Assembly: GCA_945787445.1 (NCBI GenBank)
Contig: CALZHT010000032.1
Coordinates: 1 to 45,403 of the forward strand
Length of the DNA: 45,403 nucleotides
Source of the DNA: an uncultured Desulfobulbaceae bacterium
GTDB taxonomy: Bacteria; Desulfobacterota; Desulfobulbia; Desulfobulbales; CALZHT01
Direction of reading: 5' to 3'
Below, one piece after another: positions 33,152-42,777 of the stretch (positions are counted from its first letter, which is position 1; each line of letters begins with the position of its first letter). The translations under genes and the position numbers were made by a program. The notes beneath the pieces were generated by a model. The model did not search any database. It was not told where the DNA came from and worked only from the letters and a program-made list of their open reading frames with translations.

Positions 33152-33200
33152 CTAAAAGCAGGGCATTGTTTGAATTTTTGTTTTGATCAGGAGGAATATG

Positions 33201-33689
33201 ATGACTAAGAGTTTGGTTGAGATGGCTGCAGATTTAGTTCAGTCACAATGTACAACAAAAGGTATGACAACAGAAGAAATCACCTTTTCTTTGCAGAGCA
33301 CATTTAAAGCACTTCAAGAATTGCAATTGCATGAGGCAAGAATTGCCGCAGGAGCCCAAGAAGGCATGCTGCCTGGAGACGAGATGGCAATGTCAGGTGC
33401 AGGCAGAAGTCCGGAAAAATCAATTCAGAAGAATAAGATTGTTTGTCTTGAATGCGGTCAGGAATTCAGGATGCTTTCACCCAAGCATCTCAAGTCACAT
33501 GGATTGAATGGCCGACAATACAGGGAAAAATGGGGTTTTTCCTTGAGGCAGCCGTTGTGCGCAAAGTCGCTCTCCGACCGCCGCAAGAAGGCTGGGAAAG
33601 CAAGAGGTCTACCGGAAAATTTAAAGAAAGCAATAGCACGTCGAAAAAAGGGCAGCAAAACCAAGAAAAAAGGAGCTGCAGCCCGTTAG
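33201..33689 (+). CDS. MucR/Ros family zinc-finger transcriptional regulator
   Basis: A 162-residue MucR-like regulator. The N-terminal part (MTKSLVEMAADLVQSQ) is helical and likely mediates oligomerisation. The prokaryotic zinc finger reads CLECGQEFRMLSPKHLKSH (about residues 87-105), with the C2H2 ligands in place, followed by NGRQYREKWGF typical of the family. A basic tail rich in Lys, Arg and Ala ends the protein. The ATG at 33201 stands six bases after AGGAGG; the ATG at 33198 is also possible. MucR proteins are H-NS-like silencers or regulators of surface polysaccharide and cell-cycle genes in alphaproteobacteria. Its targets here are unknown. Confidence 0.92.
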   Translation: MTKSLVEMAADLVQSQCTTKGMTTEEITFSLQSTFKALQELQLHEARIAAGAQEGMLPGDEMAMSGAGRSPEKSIQKNKIVCLECGQEFRMLSPKHLKSHGLNGRQYREKWGFSLRQPLCAKSLSDRRKKAGKARGLPENLKKAIARRKKGSKTKKKGAAAR

Positions 33690-34215: not shown

Positions 34216-35007
34216 ATGATCGGCATATTTGATTCCGGGGTGGGCGGTATGACTGTGGCCCGCGCCATAGAAAAAAAGCTTCCTTCGTATAATATTATTT
34301 ATTTTGGGGACTTAGCGAGGACGCCGTATGGTTCGAAGAGTGCTGAAACAATTATCAGGTATTCCCTCCAGAATACTGAGTTTCTGATTTCCAAAGGCGC
34401 AAAACTCATTGTCATTGCCTGTAATTCAGCGGCCAGTGTGGCTTCCAATGTGTTACAGAATAGCTTTGATATTCCAGTATTTGAAGTGATCACCCCGGCG
34501 GTTTCAGAAGCAGTTGTTGCATCGCAGAATGGCAAAGTTGGTGTTGTCGGCACAAGGGCAACGATTTCAAGCAATATTTATGAAACAGAAATAAAGGCTA
34601 TTGACTCTTCTTTTCAGGTTTTTTCAAAGGACTGCCCCCTTTTTGTGCCCTTGGTAGAGGAGGGCTGGATCAACAAACCGGAAACGAAAATGATTATACG
34701 GCGATACCTTACTCCCCTTAAACAGAAAGCGGTAGATACTCTTGTCCTTGGCTGCACACATTATCCTTTACTCCTCCATTTAATAAAACCTCGCATTGGG
34801 AAAAGGGTCAAAGTCATAGATTCCTCTGAAGCCATGGCGGAAAATTTGAAAAATTTTTTGGAAAATAATCCTGGAATTGCTGACACTCTTTCACAGAATG
34901 TTGAAAGCCGGTATTATGTCTCTGATGTGACGGAAGCGGCAATGGCGACAGCCAAAAAAATCTTTGGCAGGCAAGTAGATCTTAACCGTGTCGCCTTCGG
35001 TTCATAA
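34216..35007 (+). CDS. murI: Glutamate racemase
   Basis: A 263-residue MurI, which interconverts L- and D-glutamate for peptidoglycan. The N-terminal signature MIGIFDSGVGGMTVARAI and GDLARTPYG are typical. The two catalytic cysteines lie in VIACNSAAS (about residue 74) and LVLGCTHYPLLL (about residue 184). Length fits. It is the first gene of a plus-strand run that continues into lolA after 27 bp. Confidence 0.96.
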   Translation: MIGIFDSGVGGMTVARAIEKKLPSYNIIYFGDLARTPYGSKSAETIIRYSLQNTEFLISKGAKLIVIACNSAASVASNVLQNSFDIPVFEVITPAVSEAVVASQNGKVGVVGTRATISSNIYETEIKAIDSSFQVFSKDCPLFVPLVEEGWINKPETKMIIRRYLTPLKQKAVDTLVLGCTHYPLLLHLIKPRIGKRVKVIDSSEAMAENLKNFLENNPGIADTLSQNVESRYYVSDVTEAAMATAKKIFGRQVDLNRVAFGS

Positions 35008-35034: not shown

Positions 35035-35751
35035 ATGTTACATAAAACAGCATCATTTTATACAGTGTTATTAAGCATCTTTTTTTTGACATGTATACCA
35101 CCTGTTCATGCCAAAATCTTGTCTCCTATGGAAGTGGCTGAACGGCTGCAGCATACGTATGAGAACACCAAAAGCATTACCGCCGTTTTCAGCCAGGTGA
35201 CTACCATTGCCATGAGCAGAAGGGTGCGCAAAGGTGCGGGAAATATGACTCTGTTAAAACCGGGGAAATTGCGATGGGATTATCATACGCCCGATAAGCA
35301 GGTCATAGTGTGTGATGGGAAGAAATTTTTCATGTATTTCGCCAAAAATAAACAGATGCTTATTGCCAAGGCAACAGACTACATCAAATCTGATGTAACG
35401 TATTCTTTTTTCACCGGGGCGGGCAATATTACCAGGGATTTTGAAGTCATGCCGCCGGACCAGGACATCCCTTTCCCGCAGAATGGAAGTTCAACCACCA
35501 TTCAGGAAGAAGATCTGGCTTTAGAGGATTCCCATGTCATCAAGCTGGTGCCGAAACAGCCACATCCGCAAGTCGATTATCTTCATCTCTGGGTAGATAC
35601 AACATCTTTTCTCATAAGACGGTTGTTGATAGTTGATCAGTTCGGCAGCATCACAGATCTTCAGTTTAGGGACATCAGCATCAATCCAACCATTTCGGAA
35701 AAGTTGTTTTCATATACACCTCCGCCTGACACGGAAATAATCGAAAACTAA
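35035..35751 (+). CDS. lolA: Outer-membrane lipoprotein carrier protein LolA
   Basis: A 238-residue periplasmic protein with a signal peptide (about 1-26, ending PPVHA) and the LolA fold: VAERLQHTYENTKSITAVFSQ (split: VAERLQHTYENTK, SITAVFSQVT), KGAGNMTLLKPGKLRWDY and QVIVCDGKKFFMY. LolA ferries lipoproteins from the LolCDE complex to the outer membrane. Its stop codon is directly followed by the ATG of the next gene, so the two are probably co-translated. Confidence 0.93.
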   Translation: MLHKTASFYTVLLSIFFLTCIPPVHAKILSPMEVAERLQHTYENTKSITAVFSQVTTIAMSRRVRKGAGNMTLLKPGKLRWDYHTPDKQVIVCDGKKFFMYFAKNKQMLIAKATDYIKSDVTYSFFTGAGNITRDFEVMPPDQDIPFPQNGSSTTIQEEDLALEDSHVIKLVPKQPHPQVDYLHLWVDTTSFLIRRLLIVDQFGSITDLQFRDISINPTISEKLFSYTPPPDTEIIEN

Positions 35752-37584
35752 ATGGAATCAGTACATACCTCTAAGGCGCAGGCATCCATGCGGATGGCCT
35801 TGATCGCCATGCCGTGGCATATTTTCAACCGACCGTCCGTCCAGCTCGGCACTCTGAAGGGTTTTCTTGAAAAAAGTGACAGCCGCATTGCTGTGCAGGC
35901 TTTTCATCCGTATCTCCATGCTGCCAAAATTTTAGGGGGAGATGTATACCACTGGATATCACAGGATGTCTGGGGCTGTGAGGCATTATACAGCCCGCTT
36001 CTTTTTCCGGGGCGGTACGACCAGGCCAAAAGTATTGTCAAAGAGGCACATAAGAAGTCTCAAGAGTCAATGGCCATTGATTTCGATACCACCCATGCGG
36101 TTCTGGCAGAGTCGCTCACTCGTTTTATTGAAGGTGAGCAGTGGAACAATTTTAACCTTGTCGGTTTTTCCGTCTGCTTTAATCAGCTTTTTGCCTCGCT
36201 GGCCGCCGCCCGCATGCTAAAAGAAAGCCGTCCGGATTTGCCCATAGTTTTTGGCGGATCCACCTGTGTTTCCCAGAGTGCGGTTTCCTTGCTGACCAAT
36301 TTTCCACAGATCGATTATATCATTCAAGGGGAGGGGGAAAAGCCCCTTTTGGAGTTGTGTAGATATATAAGGCATGAGCAGGTCACATTGCCGTCTTCCA
36401 TAATGAGCAGAACTCAGAATGTTTCCGACAAGGAAATGGTCTCATTTTGTCAGTTTGACGACCTTTCCGAGCTGCCGATCCCTGATTTCAGCGATTATTT
36501 TACAGAGATGCAACAGTGGTTCGGCAAAGAGCCGTTTATTCCTGAATTACCGATCGAATTCTCCAGAGGGTGCTGGTGGGGGAAATGCGCTTTCTGCAAT
36601 CTTAATACCCAATGGCGCGGCTACCGTGCTAAAAAGACGGATCAGATGATAAATGAAGTCATCACCTTGTCTGAAAAATATGAGTGCCTTGATTTTTCAT
36701 TTACGGATAACTCACTTCCGGTTAAGGAATCGCATCGTTTTTTTGAAAAGCTTGCACCCTTAAAGCATGATTTCAGGTTTTTTGGAGAGATCCGGGTAGG
36801 ACACAGTAATGATGACCTGAAGGTCATGCAGAGAGGAGGCCTTGTAACCGTGCAGGCGGGGATAGAAGCATTGAGCGAAAGCCTGCTCAAAAAGCTCAAA
36901 AAAGGTGTGTCTGTAATCGAAAATATTGCCCTCATGAAAGACGCTCTTGCCCGGAATATAGAGTTGGATGGAAATTTAATCATTGAGTTTCCAGGCAGCA
37001 CTCAGGATGAGGTGGATGACACCATGAAAAATCTCGATTTTGTCTGGCCTTTTCGCCCCCTTGCCCCAGCTTCTTTTTTTCTGGGTCTTGGAAGCCCGGT
37101 TGACAGGGAACCGGCAAACTATGGTATTCGAGCTATAGTTCACCACAGGCATGTTGCCAAACTGTTTCCCCGTGAGATGCTGCCCAACCTGACCTTTCTC
37201 ATAAAAGAATACCGGGGAGACCGCACGCTGCAGAGAGGGCTCTGGAAACCGGTGGTGCAAAAGATGTCAGCATGGAAAGCCTTTCACCGCAAGCGGGCAA
37301 GGTCATCATCAGGGAGAGGCCCGGCGCTTTCCTATCGAAACGGAGGTGATTTTCTCATTATCCGTCAGGAATTGCCGAACAAACCGACCCTCCATCATCG
37401 CCTCCGTGGACTTTCCCGGGATGTATATTTATTCTGTACCGAGATGAGAGACATGGATGACCTGCTTGACCACTTTCCGCGATTAAACCGGGACAAACTC
37501 TTGCAGTTTATTGATTCCATGGTAATGAAACGGTTGATGTTTTCACAGGACGAGAAATATCTCTCCCTTGCGGTGCGGAGATAA
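35752..37584 (+). CDS. B12-binding radical SAM protein (RiPP-maturation type 1-like)
   Basis: A 610-residue protein with an N-terminal cobalamin-binding-like region (about 15-220; LVGFSVCFNQLFASL, PIVFGGSTCV and YIIQGEGEKPLLEL are typical) and a radical SAM core. The cluster motif lies in SRGCWWGKCAFCN, Cys274, 279 and 282, spaced CX4CX2C, not the usual CX3CX2C. SRGCWWG and RGYRAKKTDQMINEV recall the rSAM family annotated as RiPP maturation radical SAM protein 1, whose cluster spacing is also unusual. I see no precursor peptide gene. Downstream cobU and a cobD-like gene fit a need for cobalamin, but substrate and reaction are unknown. A second ATG at 35788 is possible. Confidence 0.85.
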   Translation: MESVHTSKAQASMRMALIAMPWHIFNRPSVQLGTLKGFLEKSDSRIAVQAFHPYLHAAKILGGDVYHWISQDVWGCEALYSPLLFPGRYDQAKSIVKEAHKKSQESMAIDFDTTHAVLAESLTRFIEGEQWNNFNLVGFSVCFNQLFASLAAARMLKESRPDLPIVFGGSTCVSQSAVSLLTNFPQIDYIIQGEGEKPLLELCRYIRHEQVTLPSSIMSRTQNVSDKEMVSFCQFDDLSELPIPDFSDYFTEMQQWFGKEPFIPELPIEFSRGCWWGKCAFCNLNTQWRGYRAKKTDQMINEVITLSEKYECLDFSFTDNSLPVKESHRFFEKLAPLKHDFRFFGEIRVGHSNDDLKVMQRGGLVTVQAGIEALSESLLKKLKKGVSVIENIALMKDALARNIELDGNLIIEFPGSTQDEVDDTMKNLDFVWPFRPLAPASFFLGLGSPVDREPANYGIRAIVHHRHVAKLFPREMLPNLTFLIKEYRGDRTLQRGLWKPVVQKMSAWKAFHRKRARSSSGRGPALSYRNGGDFLIIRQELPNKPTLHHRLRGLSRDVYLFCTEMRDMDDLLDHFPRLNRDKLLQFIDSMVMKRLMFSQDEKYLSLAVRR

Positions 37585-37601
37585 CATTAGGAAAACAGTA
37601 T

Positions 37602-38159
37602 ATGACATGCGAAAAAATTGATAAACCGCTTACAATGTTTGTCCTCGGTGGTTGTAGGAGCGGGAAAAGTAAGCATGCTGAGCAATGGGTGAGCGGGCAT
37701 TTCGCAGAGCGCAAAACATTTATCGCAACTCTGGAAACTCGAGATGATCCGGAAATGGCTCATCGGGTTGCCTTGCACCGGCAAGCAAGGGGCATGGCAT
37801 GGCGCACTGTTGAGGAGCCGATTGCTCTCGCCGCGGTGCTCAAGGAACATCAACAGGCAACCGATGTCTTTTTGATTGATTGCCTCACCTTGTGGATCAC
37901 AAATTTGATGTTAAGGAATTTTTCTGACGAGCAAATTGAGGATGAGATTAAGAATGTACTCAATGTTATTGCCGGGCTTAACGCAACGGTTGTTCTGGTA
38001 GCAAATGAGGTCGGACTTGGTATAGTACCGGAAAATGGTATGGCCCGCAGGTTCCGCGATCTGGCAGGATGGACCAACCAGCAGGTAGCCAAGGATTGTT
38101 CCAAGGTGATTTTTATGGTTGCTGGTCAGGCTTTGGTTGTCAAAGATGAAGGGGATTAA
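37602..38159 (+). CDS. cobU: Adenosylcobinamide kinase / adenosylcobinamide-phosphate guanylyltransferase
   Basis: A 185-residue CobU/CobP that phosphorylates adenosylcobinamide and then transfers GMP from GTP, in the nucleotide-loop assembly of cobalamin. The P-loop reads GGCRSGKS (about residues 16-23), followed by FIATLETRDDPEM and HRQARGMAWRTVEEP, where the histidine used for guanylylation lies, and VVLVANEVGLGIVPENGMAR. The gene begins 17 bp after the radical SAM gene and ends 1 bp before the cobD-like gene. The window itself lacks cobS and cobC. Confidence 0.95.
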   Translation: MTCEKIDKPLTMFVLGGCRSGKSKHAEQWVSGHFAERKTFIATLETRDDPEMAHRVALHRQARGMAWRTVEEPIALAAVLKEHQQATDVFLIDCLTLWITNLMLRNFSDEQIEDEIKNVLNVIAGLNATVVLVANEVGLGIVPENGMARRFRDLAGWTNQQVAKDCSKVIFMVAGQALVVKDEGD

Positions 38160-38160
38160 C

Positions 38161-39258
38161 ATGGCAGAGCATTATTCAAAGAGCAGAAGTCCTGCTAGTC
38201 ATGGCGGAAATATTCTTGCCACAGCAAAAGAGTTGGGTTGTCCTATATCAGAGCTTATTGATATGAGCAGCAACCTGACTCCGCTGGGGATAATCCCCGG
38301 CTTGCAGGAAGTGCTTACCGGCAGGCTTGATGAAATAGGGTATTTGCCTGAGACCGGCAGTGATACCCTGTCAAACATGTTTGCTGCCAAGTACGACCTC
38401 TCGGCCTCGCAGGTCCTGGTGGGAAACGGCACCACCGAGTATATTTATGCAATTCCTGCTGCGACGCAACCTGAAAGGGCAATTATTATCAATCCGACAT
38501 ATTCCGACTATCATTTGGCCTGCCAATGGGCAGGAATTCAGGTGGATAATTTTGCTCTTCAGGAAGATGACGATTTTAATCTGGATCTCGGTACGTTAGG
38601 GTCGGTACTTCATGGCAGGGAACTTGTTTTTTTGTGCAATCCGAACAATCCCACCGGATTTGTCACCCCGAGTGCGGAGCTTTATCAGTTTATTCAAGAT
38701 CATCCCGAGACCATGTTTTTGGTTGACGAATCATATCTTCCTTTTGTAAGGGAGTCGTCACTGTTACGATTTCCAATACCGGACAATCTGTTTGTGCTTG
38801 CCTCCTTTTCAAAGATTTTCTGCATACCAGGACTGCGGTTAGGGTTTCTGGTTTCAGCTGAAAAAAACATGCGGGTTATGGCGAAGCGCCGCAAACCCTG
38901 GGGGGTAAACCGCATGGCCCAAATTGCCGGCGAATATGTGTTGAGTAAAGGTGACCAATACATCGAAGAAGTGATGCAGTTTCTCGAAAGGGAGAGGCCA
39001 AGATTTATAAATTGTCTGCTGGAACTGCCACACGTAGAAGTCATTCAAGGCAGGGCGAATTTTATTCTTTGCTGTCTTACAGGACCAATCAGGGCGCCGC
39101 AACTGCGGCAAGAACTTTTAGAACACCGGGTGATGATCAGAAACTGTGACAACTTTTTTGGACTTGATGACAGATATTTCCGCATGTCACTCAAAGAACG
39201 GCCGGACAATGATGTCTGTCTTAATGCCCTGAGAAATATTCTGGAGGGGGCGCCATGA
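38161..39258 (+). CDS. cobD: PLP-dependent threonine-phosphate decarboxylase (CobD) or HisC-like aminotransferase
   Basis: A 365-residue class I/II aminotransferase-fold enzyme. SPASHGGNILATAKELG with DMSSNLTPLG at the start is typical of CobD, which produces aminopropanol phosphate for the cobalamin linker. PLP-binding features include VGNGTTEYIYAIP, FLCNPNNPTG, LVDESYLPF and the lysine in LASFSKIFCIPGLRLGF. Histidinol-phosphate aminotransferases share these motifs; placement right after cobU favours CobD. The ATG at 38161 follows AAGGGGATTAAC, and the frame's longer upstream extension overlaps cobU and is rejected. Confidence 0.88.
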   Translation: MAEHYSKSRSPASHGGNILATAKELGCPISELIDMSSNLTPLGIIPGLQEVLTGRLDEIGYLPETGSDTLSNMFAAKYDLSASQVLVGNGTTEYIYAIPAATQPERAIIINPTYSDYHLACQWAGIQVDNFALQEDDDFNLDLGTLGSVLHGRELVFLCNPNNPTGFVTPSAELYQFIQDHPETMFLVDESYLPFVRESSLLRFPIPDNLFVLASFSKIFCIPGLRLGFLVSAEKNMRVMAKRRKPWGVNRMAQIAGEYVLSKGDQYIEEVMQFLERERPRFINCLLELPHVEVIQGRANFILCCLTGPIRAPQLRQELLEHRVMIRNCDNFFGLDDRYFRMSLKERPDNDVCLNALRNILEGAP

Positions 39259-39761
39259 AAATCGCCATACTCTCCGACACCCACGACCATATTCTTAATC
39301 TGCGGTCCGCAATCACATATTGTAATTCTTACGGAGTGCAAGTGATAATACATTGCGGCGATTTGATATCGCCGTTTATGCTCGACGAACTCGCCAAATT
39401 CGGCGGACCGGTCCATTTGATATACGGCAATAACGCGGGGGACCAGCACCTTATATCACAATGGTGCGGCACCAAATTCCCATCCATAACCCATCACGGT
39501 GTCTTGGGAGCAATCGAGGCAGGCGGTAGAAAGATCGCTTTTACCCATTATCCGGAGATGGCAAGGGGGCTGGCAAGCCAAGGAATTTTTAATGTTGTGT
39601 GTTGCGGTCACAACCATGCCTACAGAGTGGAAAAGCACGGTGAAACGCTTATGGTGAATCCCGGCGAACTCCTGGGCAAGGACGGGCAACCCAGTTTCGT
39701 TATTCTGGAGACCTCCATGCTGGAGGAGGAGAGGGTGGATATCGGCGCTCCAATTAAGTAA
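39255..39761 (+). CDS. Metallophosphoesterase, YfcE/MJ0936-like
   Basis: A 168-residue phosphodiesterase of the calcineurin-like fold. All metal motifs are visible: SDTHDH (residues 7-12), HCGDLI (35-40), GNNAGD (57-62), CGHNHAY and VNPGELLG. Small enzymes of this group cleave phosphodiesters in vitro; the natural substrate is unknown. Its ATG overlaps the cobD-like stop by ATGA, indicating translational coupling. It might belong to cobalamin synthesis by position, though this family is not a known step of it. Confidence 0.9.
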   Translation: MKIAILSDTHDHILNLRSAITYCNSYGVQVIIHCGDLISPFMLDELAKFGGPVHLIYGNNAGDQHLISQWCGTKFPSITHHGVLGAIEAGGRKIAFTHYPEMARGLASQGIFNVVCCGHNHAYRVEKHGETLMVNPGELLGKDGQPSFVILETSMLEEERVDIGAPIK

Positions 39762-39837
39762 GAAAGATTATTTGATAAGTACGTCAAAGAAGGTATTAAA
39801 AAGCTTTAAAAATATTTTTAATTCGGGATGGAAAAAG

Positions 39838-41076
39838 ATGCAGGATGATTTTGAAAAAAAAATGGAATCAACTCAAGAACAGATGAGAAACGAAAAAAGT
39901 TTTGCCGAATTGTTCGATGAAAAGTCAGTTCAACAAGTCAGCCTGGAGCCGGGACAAAAGGTCAAGGCCAACATTGTCCGGATTACCAGAGATGGTGTTT
40001 TTATTAACCTGGGCGGCAAGAGTGAAGGGTACCTTGACCGCAAAGAATTTGAAGATCGGGATTCCTCCCTCACGGTACAGGAAGGCGATGAAATCGAGGT
40101 ATATTTTGTCTCGGCGCGGCATAACGAACAGCTCTTCACTACCAAGATGAGCGGCTCCGCAATTAAGGACAATCTTGATGAAATTTACCGAAGCTCCATT
40201 CCACTTGAAGGATATGTTGATGAGGAAGTGAAGGGAGGATTCCAAGTAAAAATTACCGGTGATACCCGGGCATTTTGTCCCTATTCTCAGATGGATCTGC
40301 GCAGGGTTGAAAATGCCGAGGAATATGTGGGACAGCATCTGACCTTCAAAATAACGGAATACAAGGAAGGAGGAAGGAATATTATTCTTTCCCGCAGAAT
40401 CCTTCTGGAGGAAGAGCGCGATAAACAGAAGGAGGGACTGAAGGAAACACTACAGGAAGGGAGCACTGTCACCGGGACGATTACATCTGTCCGGGATTTT
40501 GGCGCCTTTATTGATATCGGCGGTCTTGAAGGGCTTATTCCGGTCTCTGAATTAGGCTGGGGCCAGATTGATGATATTCACGAGATTGTCCACCCCGACC
40601 AGGAAGTTGAAGTAACGGTCCTAAAACTTGATTGGCAGAATGATCGTTTCGCATTCAGTCTGAAAGGTACATCGCTTGACCCATGGACCATGGCGGAAGA
40701 AAAATACCGGGAGGGCACCATCCATTCGGGCCGGGTGTCCCGCTTGGTAAATTTTGGGGCCTTTGTTACACTGGAGCCCGGCATTGACGGTCTGTTACAT
40801 ATTTCGCAACTGGGAATGGGGAGAAGAATCAATCATCCCAGGGAGGTGGCCGAGCAAGGTCAGGAAATAGAAGTGCGCATAGGCTCTGTGGATATGGAGA
40901 ACAGGCGGATCAGTCTCTCCCTCGCCCATCCGGAACAACATGTTGAAGAAGGAGAGCTTTCCGAGGAATCGGAACAGGAAATGTTTGAGCAATATACTGC
41001 TGAAAAAAAGAAAACAAAAACTTCGTCCATGGGAACACTTGGTGATCTATTGAAGAATAAAATAGAGAAAAAATGA
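39838..41076 (+). CDS. S1 RNA-binding domain protein (four S1 repeats)
   Basis: A 412-residue protein with an N-terminal charged coiled stretch (DDFEKKMESTQEQMRNEKSF), followed by four S1 domains: about residues 36-105 (VKANIVRITRDGVFINLGGK), 120-190, 205-275 (GTITSVRDFGAFIDIGGLEGL) and 290-360 (GRVSRLVNFGAFVTLEPGIDG). Domains 3 and 4 match the sequence pattern of ribosomal S1 well. It may be an S1-like protein that helps RNA binding at the ribosome or in RNA decay, but the four-domain form is not the canonical six-domain S1. A TTG at 39772 is an alternative start. Its TGA is directly followed by a GGCAGAA repeat array. Confidence 0.88.
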   Translation: MQDDFEKKMESTQEQMRNEKSFAELFDEKSVQQVSLEPGQKVKANIVRITRDGVFINLGGKSEGYLDRKEFEDRDSSLTVQEGDEIEVYFVSARHNEQLFTTKMSGSAIKDNLDEIYRSSIPLEGYVDEEVKGGFQVKITGDTRAFCPYSQMDLRRVENAEEYVGQHLTFKITEYKEGGRNIILSRRILLEEERDKQKEGLKETLQEGSTVTGTITSVRDFGAFIDIGGLEGLIPVSELGWGQIDDIHEIVHPDQEVEVTVLKLDWQNDRFAFSLKGTSLDPWTMAEEKYREGTIHSGRVSRLVNFGAFVTLEPGIDGLLHISQLGMGRRINHPREVAEQGQEIEVRIGSVDMENRRISLSLAHPEQHVEEGELSEESEQEMFEQYTAEKKKTKTSSMGTLGDLLKNKIEKK

Positions 41077-41994: not shown

Positions 41995-42777
41995 TCAAAA
42001 TTCCGTGCGAATTGCCCACAAATCGGGAAAAGCCGGCTTAAACAAGGTTGAGGTCAGATAGGCAACGCCGGTCGATCCACCGGTTCCCGATTTACTGCCG
42101 ATCATCCGTTCCACCATTTTGACATGCCGATAGCGCCATTCCTGAAAACCTTCATCAAGATCAAGCAGCCGTTCGCAAACCTGGGTGATTGCAGGGTTAT
42201 GACGATAGATATCGATGAGGATTGCCTGCAATTCTCTTGAGGATTGGACGGCCTGAGTGGTGTCTCGGTTGAGCAGCTCTTGGGGTACATCATATCCTTC
42301 TCTAACCAGATAATGCAAAAATTTGTCCCAGAGTACGGGTTTATGAAAACGTTCTTCCATGTGTCGGCGGGCATCACTGCCTTCAGGGAAACGTAATATT
42401 GTTGCGTGATTTTTATAGCCGAGGGTGAATTCAAGTTGACGGAACTGGAATGATTGAAAACCGCTGGCAGTGCCGAGATCATTACGAAAGCCGAGAAATT
42501 CAAGGGGCGCCAGAGTTTTCAGGGTATCGATTTGCAGAAGCAGTATTTTATTAATGGCACAGATCCTCCCTAGGGTATGCACGGCAGCCGGAGTATCGTT
42601 TCGGTCAAAGAGTTTCTCCAGAAAGTCGATTTCATAAAGTATTCCTTTAAACCAGAGTTCATAAGCCTGATGAATGAGGATGAAAAACATTTCATCATGG
42701 TGCGGTCCTTTGGAAAGTGGCTGTTGGAGAGAAAGCAGTTTTTCCAATTGCAGATAATTTGAATAGGTTACCTCCAC
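41995..42777 (-). CDS. kynA: Tryptophan 2,3-dioxygenase
   Basis: A 260-residue haem dioxygenase that opens the indole ring of tryptophan to give N-formylkynurenine. Family blocks include YLQLEKLLSLQQPLS, DEMFFILIHQAYELWFK, the haem-pocket FQSFQFRQLEF, EWRYRHVKMVERMIG (proximal histidine) and the substrate loop GTGGSTGVAYL. All are intact. It starts with GTG behind AGGAGG, spaced five bases. No other kynurenine pathway gene is nearby. An O2-dependent enzyme is unexpected in an anaerobe; see findings. Confidence 0.95.
   Translation of the reverse strand: MEVTYSNYLQLEKLLSLQQPLSKGPHHDEMFFILIHQAYELWFKGILYEIDFLEKLFDRNDTPAAVHTLGRICAINKILLLQIDTLKTLAPLEFLGFRNDLGTASGFQSFQFRQLEFTLGYKNHATILRFPEGSDARRHMEERFHKPVLWDKFLHYLVREGYDVPQELLNRDTTQAVQSSRELQAILIDIYRHNPAITQVCERLLDLDEGFQEWRYRHVKMVERMIGSKSGTGGSTGVAYLTSTLFKPAFPDLWAIRTEF

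Follow-up and report, generated by a model that had tools for sequence, protein, structure and literature searches.

Organisation of the locus

The window, the whole 45,403-nucleotide stretch of DNA that was analysed, comes from an uncultured Desulfobulbaceae bacterium. It encodes a B12-type radical SAM (rSAM) protein within a run of genes on the forward strand, which are listed below with the domains and motifs of the rSAM protein.

33183-33689, + strand: ROS/MUCR-type transcriptional regulator
34216..35007, + strand: murI (glutamate racemase), the upstream neighbour conserved in the taxonomic order
35035..35751, + strand: lolA (outer-membrane lipoprotein carrier), abutting the rSAM gene, with one match in its own genome
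35752..37584, + strand: B12-type radical SAM protein, 610 aa, of a divergent clade of TIGR03975 (ORF call, profile and tree)
35788..36369, + strand: predicted Rossmann-type cobalamin-binding domain, N-terminal, about residues 13-206 (Pfam match below cut-off, and fold)
36553..37029, + strand: radical SAM core, residues 268-426
36571..36597, + strand: [4Fe-4S] motif, C274-X4-C279-X2-C282
36598..36633, + strand: clade signature NLNTQWRGYRAK, directly past the third Cys (consensus NLNxQWxGYRxK)
37306..37581, + strand: C-terminal winged-helix domain, residues 519-610, with a fold like that of the RRE leader-peptide binder TbiB1
37602..38159, + strand: cobU, a variable neighbour
38161..39258, + strand: cobD-like threonine-phosphate decarboxylase, a variable neighbour (268 bits, just below the cut-off of 290.55)
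39255..39761, + strand: YfcE-family phosphodiesterase
39772..41076, + strand: S1-domain RNA-binding protein of the ribosomal S1 type, with four S1 matches

A previous sequence-only reading had described the rSAM gene as directly attached to lolA and cobU. This holds on both sides: the rSAM ATG, at 35752, directly follows the lolA stop codon, whose last base is 35751, and cobU starts at 37602, 17 nt after the rSAM stop codon. The range that it singled out, 35752-39258, comprises the rSAM gene plus cobU and cobD. In the G017 copy of the rSAM gene, an in-frame TGA lies upstream of the true start.

Family assignment and phylogenetic position

Profile searches against rSAM families confirmed a B12-type enzyme related to RiPP-maturation type 1 (TIGR03975). 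The NCBIfam model TIGR03975 (RiPP-maturation radical SAM C-methyltransferase) matched residues 16-608 at 352.5 bits (E 4.3e-105; curated cut-off 281.85 bits), and the match spans model positions 2-606, its full length. The next best models, Sden_1168, BchE, ApyD and HpnJ, scored far under their own cut-offs, and no other protein in the genome of the window passed the TIGR03975 cut-off. The radical SAM core was matched by the Pfam Radical_SAM model (E 4.4e-11). The Pfam B12-binding match covers residues 126-202 only, at 26.0 bits against a gathering cut-off of 32.1, so the assignment of a cobalamin domain rests on TIGR03975 and the predicted fold.

Full-length TIGR03975 proteins in a scan of the phylum fell into two score classes, of about 576-662 and 284-403 bits, the lower being the clade of the window's rSAM protein. 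A tree separated this clade from the RiPP-type, precursor-linked TIGR03975 proteins with an SH-aLRT of 100 and long branches, and did not place the window's protein among the high-scoring RiPP-type members. The clade gene is present in single copy and its tree groups broadly by family. In the papers covered by full-text searches for TIGR03975, no protein of this branch has been characterised.

Spacing of the cluster motif

The CX4CX2C arrangement proposed for Cys274, Cys279 and Cys282 was borne out in its sequence context, SRGCWWGKCAFC, where the cluster region reads SRGC-WWGK-C-AF-C. It is invariant in 29/29 same-order orthologues and in 80/80 best relatives from named genomes. Among 40 clade members outside the order, the first cluster loop has 4 residues in 18, 9 residues in two and 12-17 residues in 20, giving the clade an overall range of CX4 to CX17. 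A CxFCNLNxQWxGYR-like signature is present in all 40, whatever the loop length, and just three changes of loop class are needed on the tree. The residues past the third Cys read NLNxQWxGYRxK in the clade and typically GLNGxxxxYRSK in the RiPP-type relatives.

Of 11 RiPP-type TIGR03975 proteins, nine have a first loop of 7 residues and two a loop of 4, which makes CX7CX2C a weak criterion for TIGR03975. The two with CX4CX2C (L153, L154; L222, L223) come from two genomes of family f29, both of which also carry Nif11 and NHLP leaders. The departure from CX3CX2C noted earlier is present, but the spacing is neither diagnostic nor a special signature. Because the loop runs from CX4 to CX17 within the clade, with precedents in OxsB (CX4) and QueE (CX14), CX4CX2C is no sign of new chemistry. 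More generally, one orthologous family with a loop of 4 to 17 residues shows that spacing is unfit for claims of this kind.

Predicted structure

An AlphaFold model of the rSAM protein was built with 39 sequences (mean pLDDT 89) and compared with solved structures by Foldseek and VIA-align. The nearest was OxsB (Z 26, 405 residues), and the other close matches included MgmA (Z 22.7), TsrM (Z 22.4), CysS, TokK and AprD4; these are mostly cobalamin-dependent methylases. The match to OxsB, TsrM, TokK, CysS and MgmA covers residues 11-523. In the predicted fold, a cobalamin-type Rossmann domain is fused N-terminally to the radical SAM core, the arrangement that defines class B. Homology and the modelled fold together place the window protein among the class B radical SAM C-methylases; cobalamin binding, methylation and a peptide substrate are inferred.

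The C-terminal 92 residues form a separate domain of strands, helices and a wing (pLDDT 94.6). Its best fold match was TbiB1, a lasso-peptide RRE protein bound to its leader (Z 9.0 and 8.7, with an rmsd of 2.2 Å at Z 9.0 and 75/88 residues aligned). The three strands and winged three-helix fold of an RRE are present; the likeness is by fold alone, winged helices are common, and generic ones scored Z 7-8, about 1 Z unit under TbiB1. By sequence, the domain matched only TIGR03975 positions 520-606 among NCBIfam models and none of the Pfam RRE profiles; one relative weakly matched Lant_dehydr_N 149-194 (E 0.04). Sequence searches of the PDB returned weak matches only for the protein, and no credible one for the C-terminal domain. 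The domain is kept in the aligned orthologues, and a peptide or protein bound by it is probably the substrate of the enzyme. The substrates proposed earlier, a small molecule, a lipoprotein or a cobamide precursor, are thus not those that this RRE-like domain and the relatives favour.

Genomic neighbourhood

The neighbourhood within the order was examined for the 80 best relatives from named genomes, with the lolA, murI and cobU ratios calculated over loci with enough flanking sequence. In the order, the genes form a block, murI-lolA-rSAM-S1, of which the S1 gene is the usual downstream end (present at 64/80 rSAM loci). lolA precedes the rSAM gene at 74/77 informative loci and murI lies upstream at 70/72, while cobU follows at 22/74. 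The ROS/MUCR-type regulator accompanies murI-lolA across much of the order. At 40 rSAM loci outside the order, lolA was adjacent in 1/38, cobU in 0/36 and murI in none. Conversely, nine order members (families f5 and f11) lack an rSAM gene beside lolA and keep murI-lolA intact, and yfcE or S1 is close to murI-lolA in several of these relatives. In other families, the rSAM gene has different neighbours: fbp-htpX with a TPR protein, a pyruvate/indolepyruvate-type oxidoreductase, or a CDF transporter. Thus, of the proposed lolA-rSAM-cobU linkage, the lolA part is conserved within the order and the cobU part is not, and neither is conserved beyond it. Since the neighbours elsewhere are unrelated and murI-lolA is kept without the rSAM gene, these contexts represent local synteny that is uninformative on the substrate, and the suggested functional link to lolA or cobU is not supported.

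This bears on two alternatives. The first is that the enzyme modifies LolA or a lipoprotein carried by LolA, for which the abutting gene in the order is the argument. We consider this very improbable and rejected it, given that the adjacency disappears outside the order, that lolA persists in the nine members without an adjacent rSAM gene, and that lolA, having a single match in the genome of the window, is the housekeeping copy. The second is that the enzyme acts on a small molecule, namely a cobamide, a precursor of one, a lipid or a tetrapyrrole. The cobU and cobD genes downstream here and in some relatives are compatible with this, and so is the fact that the closest folds include OxsB, CysS and AprD4, enzymes whose substrates are small or carrier-bound. 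However, cobU adjacency is unconserved, on which ground a cobamide role was rejected, the BchE and BzaD models fell far short of their cut-offs, and the aligned orthologues have kept their RRE-like domain. A small-molecule substrate is therefore fairly unlikely.

Several other families encode a TPR protein downstream of the rSAM gene (L213:9922-10752); this protein was also considered as a partner and was rejected, as it was not found in the genome of the window. It and its homologues are uncharacterised proteins of about 270 aa with a C-terminal TPR and a conserved core, DWMVGAIFHEAMKLKENAYM. Since homologues in other genomes instead adjoin a gene that reads, from its sequence, as glycogen-synthase-like, this protein is no universal partner of the rSAM enzyme. 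A weak match to this TPR protein lies beside dsrA in two f54 genomes.

Search for RiPP precursors

The absence of a RiPP precursor near the rSAM gene, remarked on in the sequence-only reading, was upheld: the genome of the window has no NHLP or Nif11 leader, and no recurrent small ORF adjoins the gene. Across 121 loci, no recurrent precursor-like ORF was found beside the rSAM gene, in a small-ORF search of limited sensitivity that recovered one known control precursor while others lay beyond its range. The ORFs that this search did pick up looked like antisense shadows of the murI, lolA and S1 genes, the rest resembling FmdB-like and MarR-like ORFs upstream of murI. No RiPP-type gene set recurred beside the clade gene at the loci examined. 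Nif11 leaders over the cut-off occurred in 4/11 RiPP-type genomes versus 1/40 clade genomes (p 0.006), on the rSAM contig in the former and on a different contig in the single positive clade genome. NHLP leaders over the cut-off were found in 3/11 versus 0/40. The leader searches covered NHLP and Nif11, and unrecognised leader families could escape them. A RiPP cluster is seen in genome G156, where three tandem Nif11-leader precursor genes (L218:5186-6385) are followed, with one gene between, by two RiPP-type TIGR03975 enzymes (L218:7944-11944).

The window protein could still be a true RiPP maturase, its precursor lying elsewhere in the genome or belonging to an unrecognised leader family and its product being a conserved methylated peptide. 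TIGR03975 membership by score and the RRE-like domain are in keeping with this; a precursor need not be linked to its maturase, just one control precursor was caught by the small-ORF search, and 7/11 RiPP-type genomes likewise have no Nif11 match. Against this, leaders are missing from the genome of the window and nearly so from the 40 clade genomes, no recurrent RiPP-type gene set adjoins the gene, and the gene is single-copy with a tree broadly by family. We regard this explanation as possible but doubtful. The label 'RiPP maturation' is earned by score and not by precursor, motif or clade. Databases give this label to the clade proteins, yet the branch has no visible RiPP.

Distribution and association with dsrA

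Among 395 genomes, all within the phylum Desulfobacterota, the clade gene was found over the cut-off in 56. dsrA was present in 54/56 clade-bearing genomes versus 136/339 others (Fisher p 4e-17) and, counted by family, in 27/27 versus 28/78 (p 4e-10), an association that is confounded by shared ancestry, with p-values inflated by kinship. The genome lists behind these counts were transcribed by hand from the two tables. Of the two clade-bearing genomes without dsrA, one is G098, which is 67% complete, and the other is G355; 136 genomes carry dsrA without the clade gene. Carriers include the cultured species Desulfoprunum benzoelyticum and Desulfosediminicola flagellatus (loci L146 and L130), and a single genus can hold both carriers (G207, G296) and non-carriers (G254, G407). 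The genome of the window carries dsrA and also encodes, at 41998-42777 on the minus strand, a homologue of tryptophan 2,3-dioxygenase (E 4.7e-62), an O2-using enzyme family. Mostly inherited vertically and present in single copy, the clade gene belongs to Desulfobacterota-type bacteria that have dissimilatory sulfite reductase. The best reading of the sequence data is that the clade represents an orphan TIGR03975 branch of dsr-bearing bacteria in this phylum.

DsrA and DsrB were considered as substrates. No alignment column separates rSAM-bearing from rSAM-lacking genomes, so the subunits are not implicated, in a test that a universally conserved target residue would escape. A recurrent gene set adjoins dsrAB, encoding a TPR protein, a zinc-ribbon/HEAT-repeat protein and a CxxCxxCC-domain protein (L241:2233-5232, L242:10547-13412, L243:3626-6726 and L244:3778-6710; Pfam on the L241 set). 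The HEAT-repeat protein (alignment A5) is widespread among dsrA genomes and was rejected as a partner, as it occurs in rSAM-bearing and rSAM-lacking dsrA genomes alike.

Proposed function

We propose that the protein belongs to the cobalamin-dependent class B of radical SAM enzymes and C-methylates a ribosomally made peptide or protein, most likely a protein whose gene lies elsewhere in the genome, a reading to which we give about even weight. The RRE-like C-terminal domain would hold a segment of the substrate, and the [4Fe-4S] cluster on Cys274/279/282 would cleave SAM, and the resulting 5'-deoxyadenosyl radical would take a hydrogen from the substrate. Methylcobalamin in the N-terminal Rossmann domain would then methylate the sp3 carbon, and a second SAM would recharge the cobalamin. 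Unlike in the RiPP-making relatives, no precursor is linked, and the substrate protein would be encoded away from the rSAM gene.

By analogy with MgmA and methyl-coenzyme M reductase (MCR) (PMC11796369), the sulfate-respiration machinery is a speculative candidate target. It seems distinctly unlikely that the enzyme is a bacterial counterpart of MgmA/Mmp10 that C-methylates one of the core proteins in dissimilatory sulfate/sulfite respiration. If a housekeeping protein is methylated, sulfite-respiring bacteria would bear a protein modification of a kind so far unreported, and the link to dsrA shows where to look.

Comparison with known systems

The window protein resembles the TIGR03975 (rSAM_ocin_1, PoyB/PoyC-type) enzymes by homology over the N-terminal domain, the radical SAM core and the C-terminal domain. 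PoyB and PoyC, judging by their motif, are presumably members of this family. Their cluster motif is CX7CX2C (PMC5682303, PMC11285071). The window protein differs in having CX4CX2C, NLNxQW rather than GLNG past the third Cys, and no linked precursor; it also lies in a long-branched clade separate from the RiPP-type relatives, of which 9/11 have CX7CX2C.

OxsB is a B12 radical SAM enzyme whose substrate is a nucleotide. It is the best structural match (PDB 5UL2-5UL4) and shares CX4CX2C in the alignment, but has about 17% identity to the window protein and no matching RRE-like C-terminal domain. MgmA and Mmp10/MamA are methanogen B12 radical SAM methylases that modify MCR, and they set a precedent for genome-encoded enzymes of this type that methylate a core respiratory enzyme with no RiPP cluster involved (PMC11796369, PMC8828468). 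MgmA matches the window protein in fold (Z 22.7), yet belongs to another sequence family (TIGR04014, 39 bits against a cut-off of 360). QueE, with CX14CX2C, shows that a canonical cluster site tolerates a longer first loop (PMC4389238); in the present case, a single orthologous clade covers the range from CX4 to CX17.
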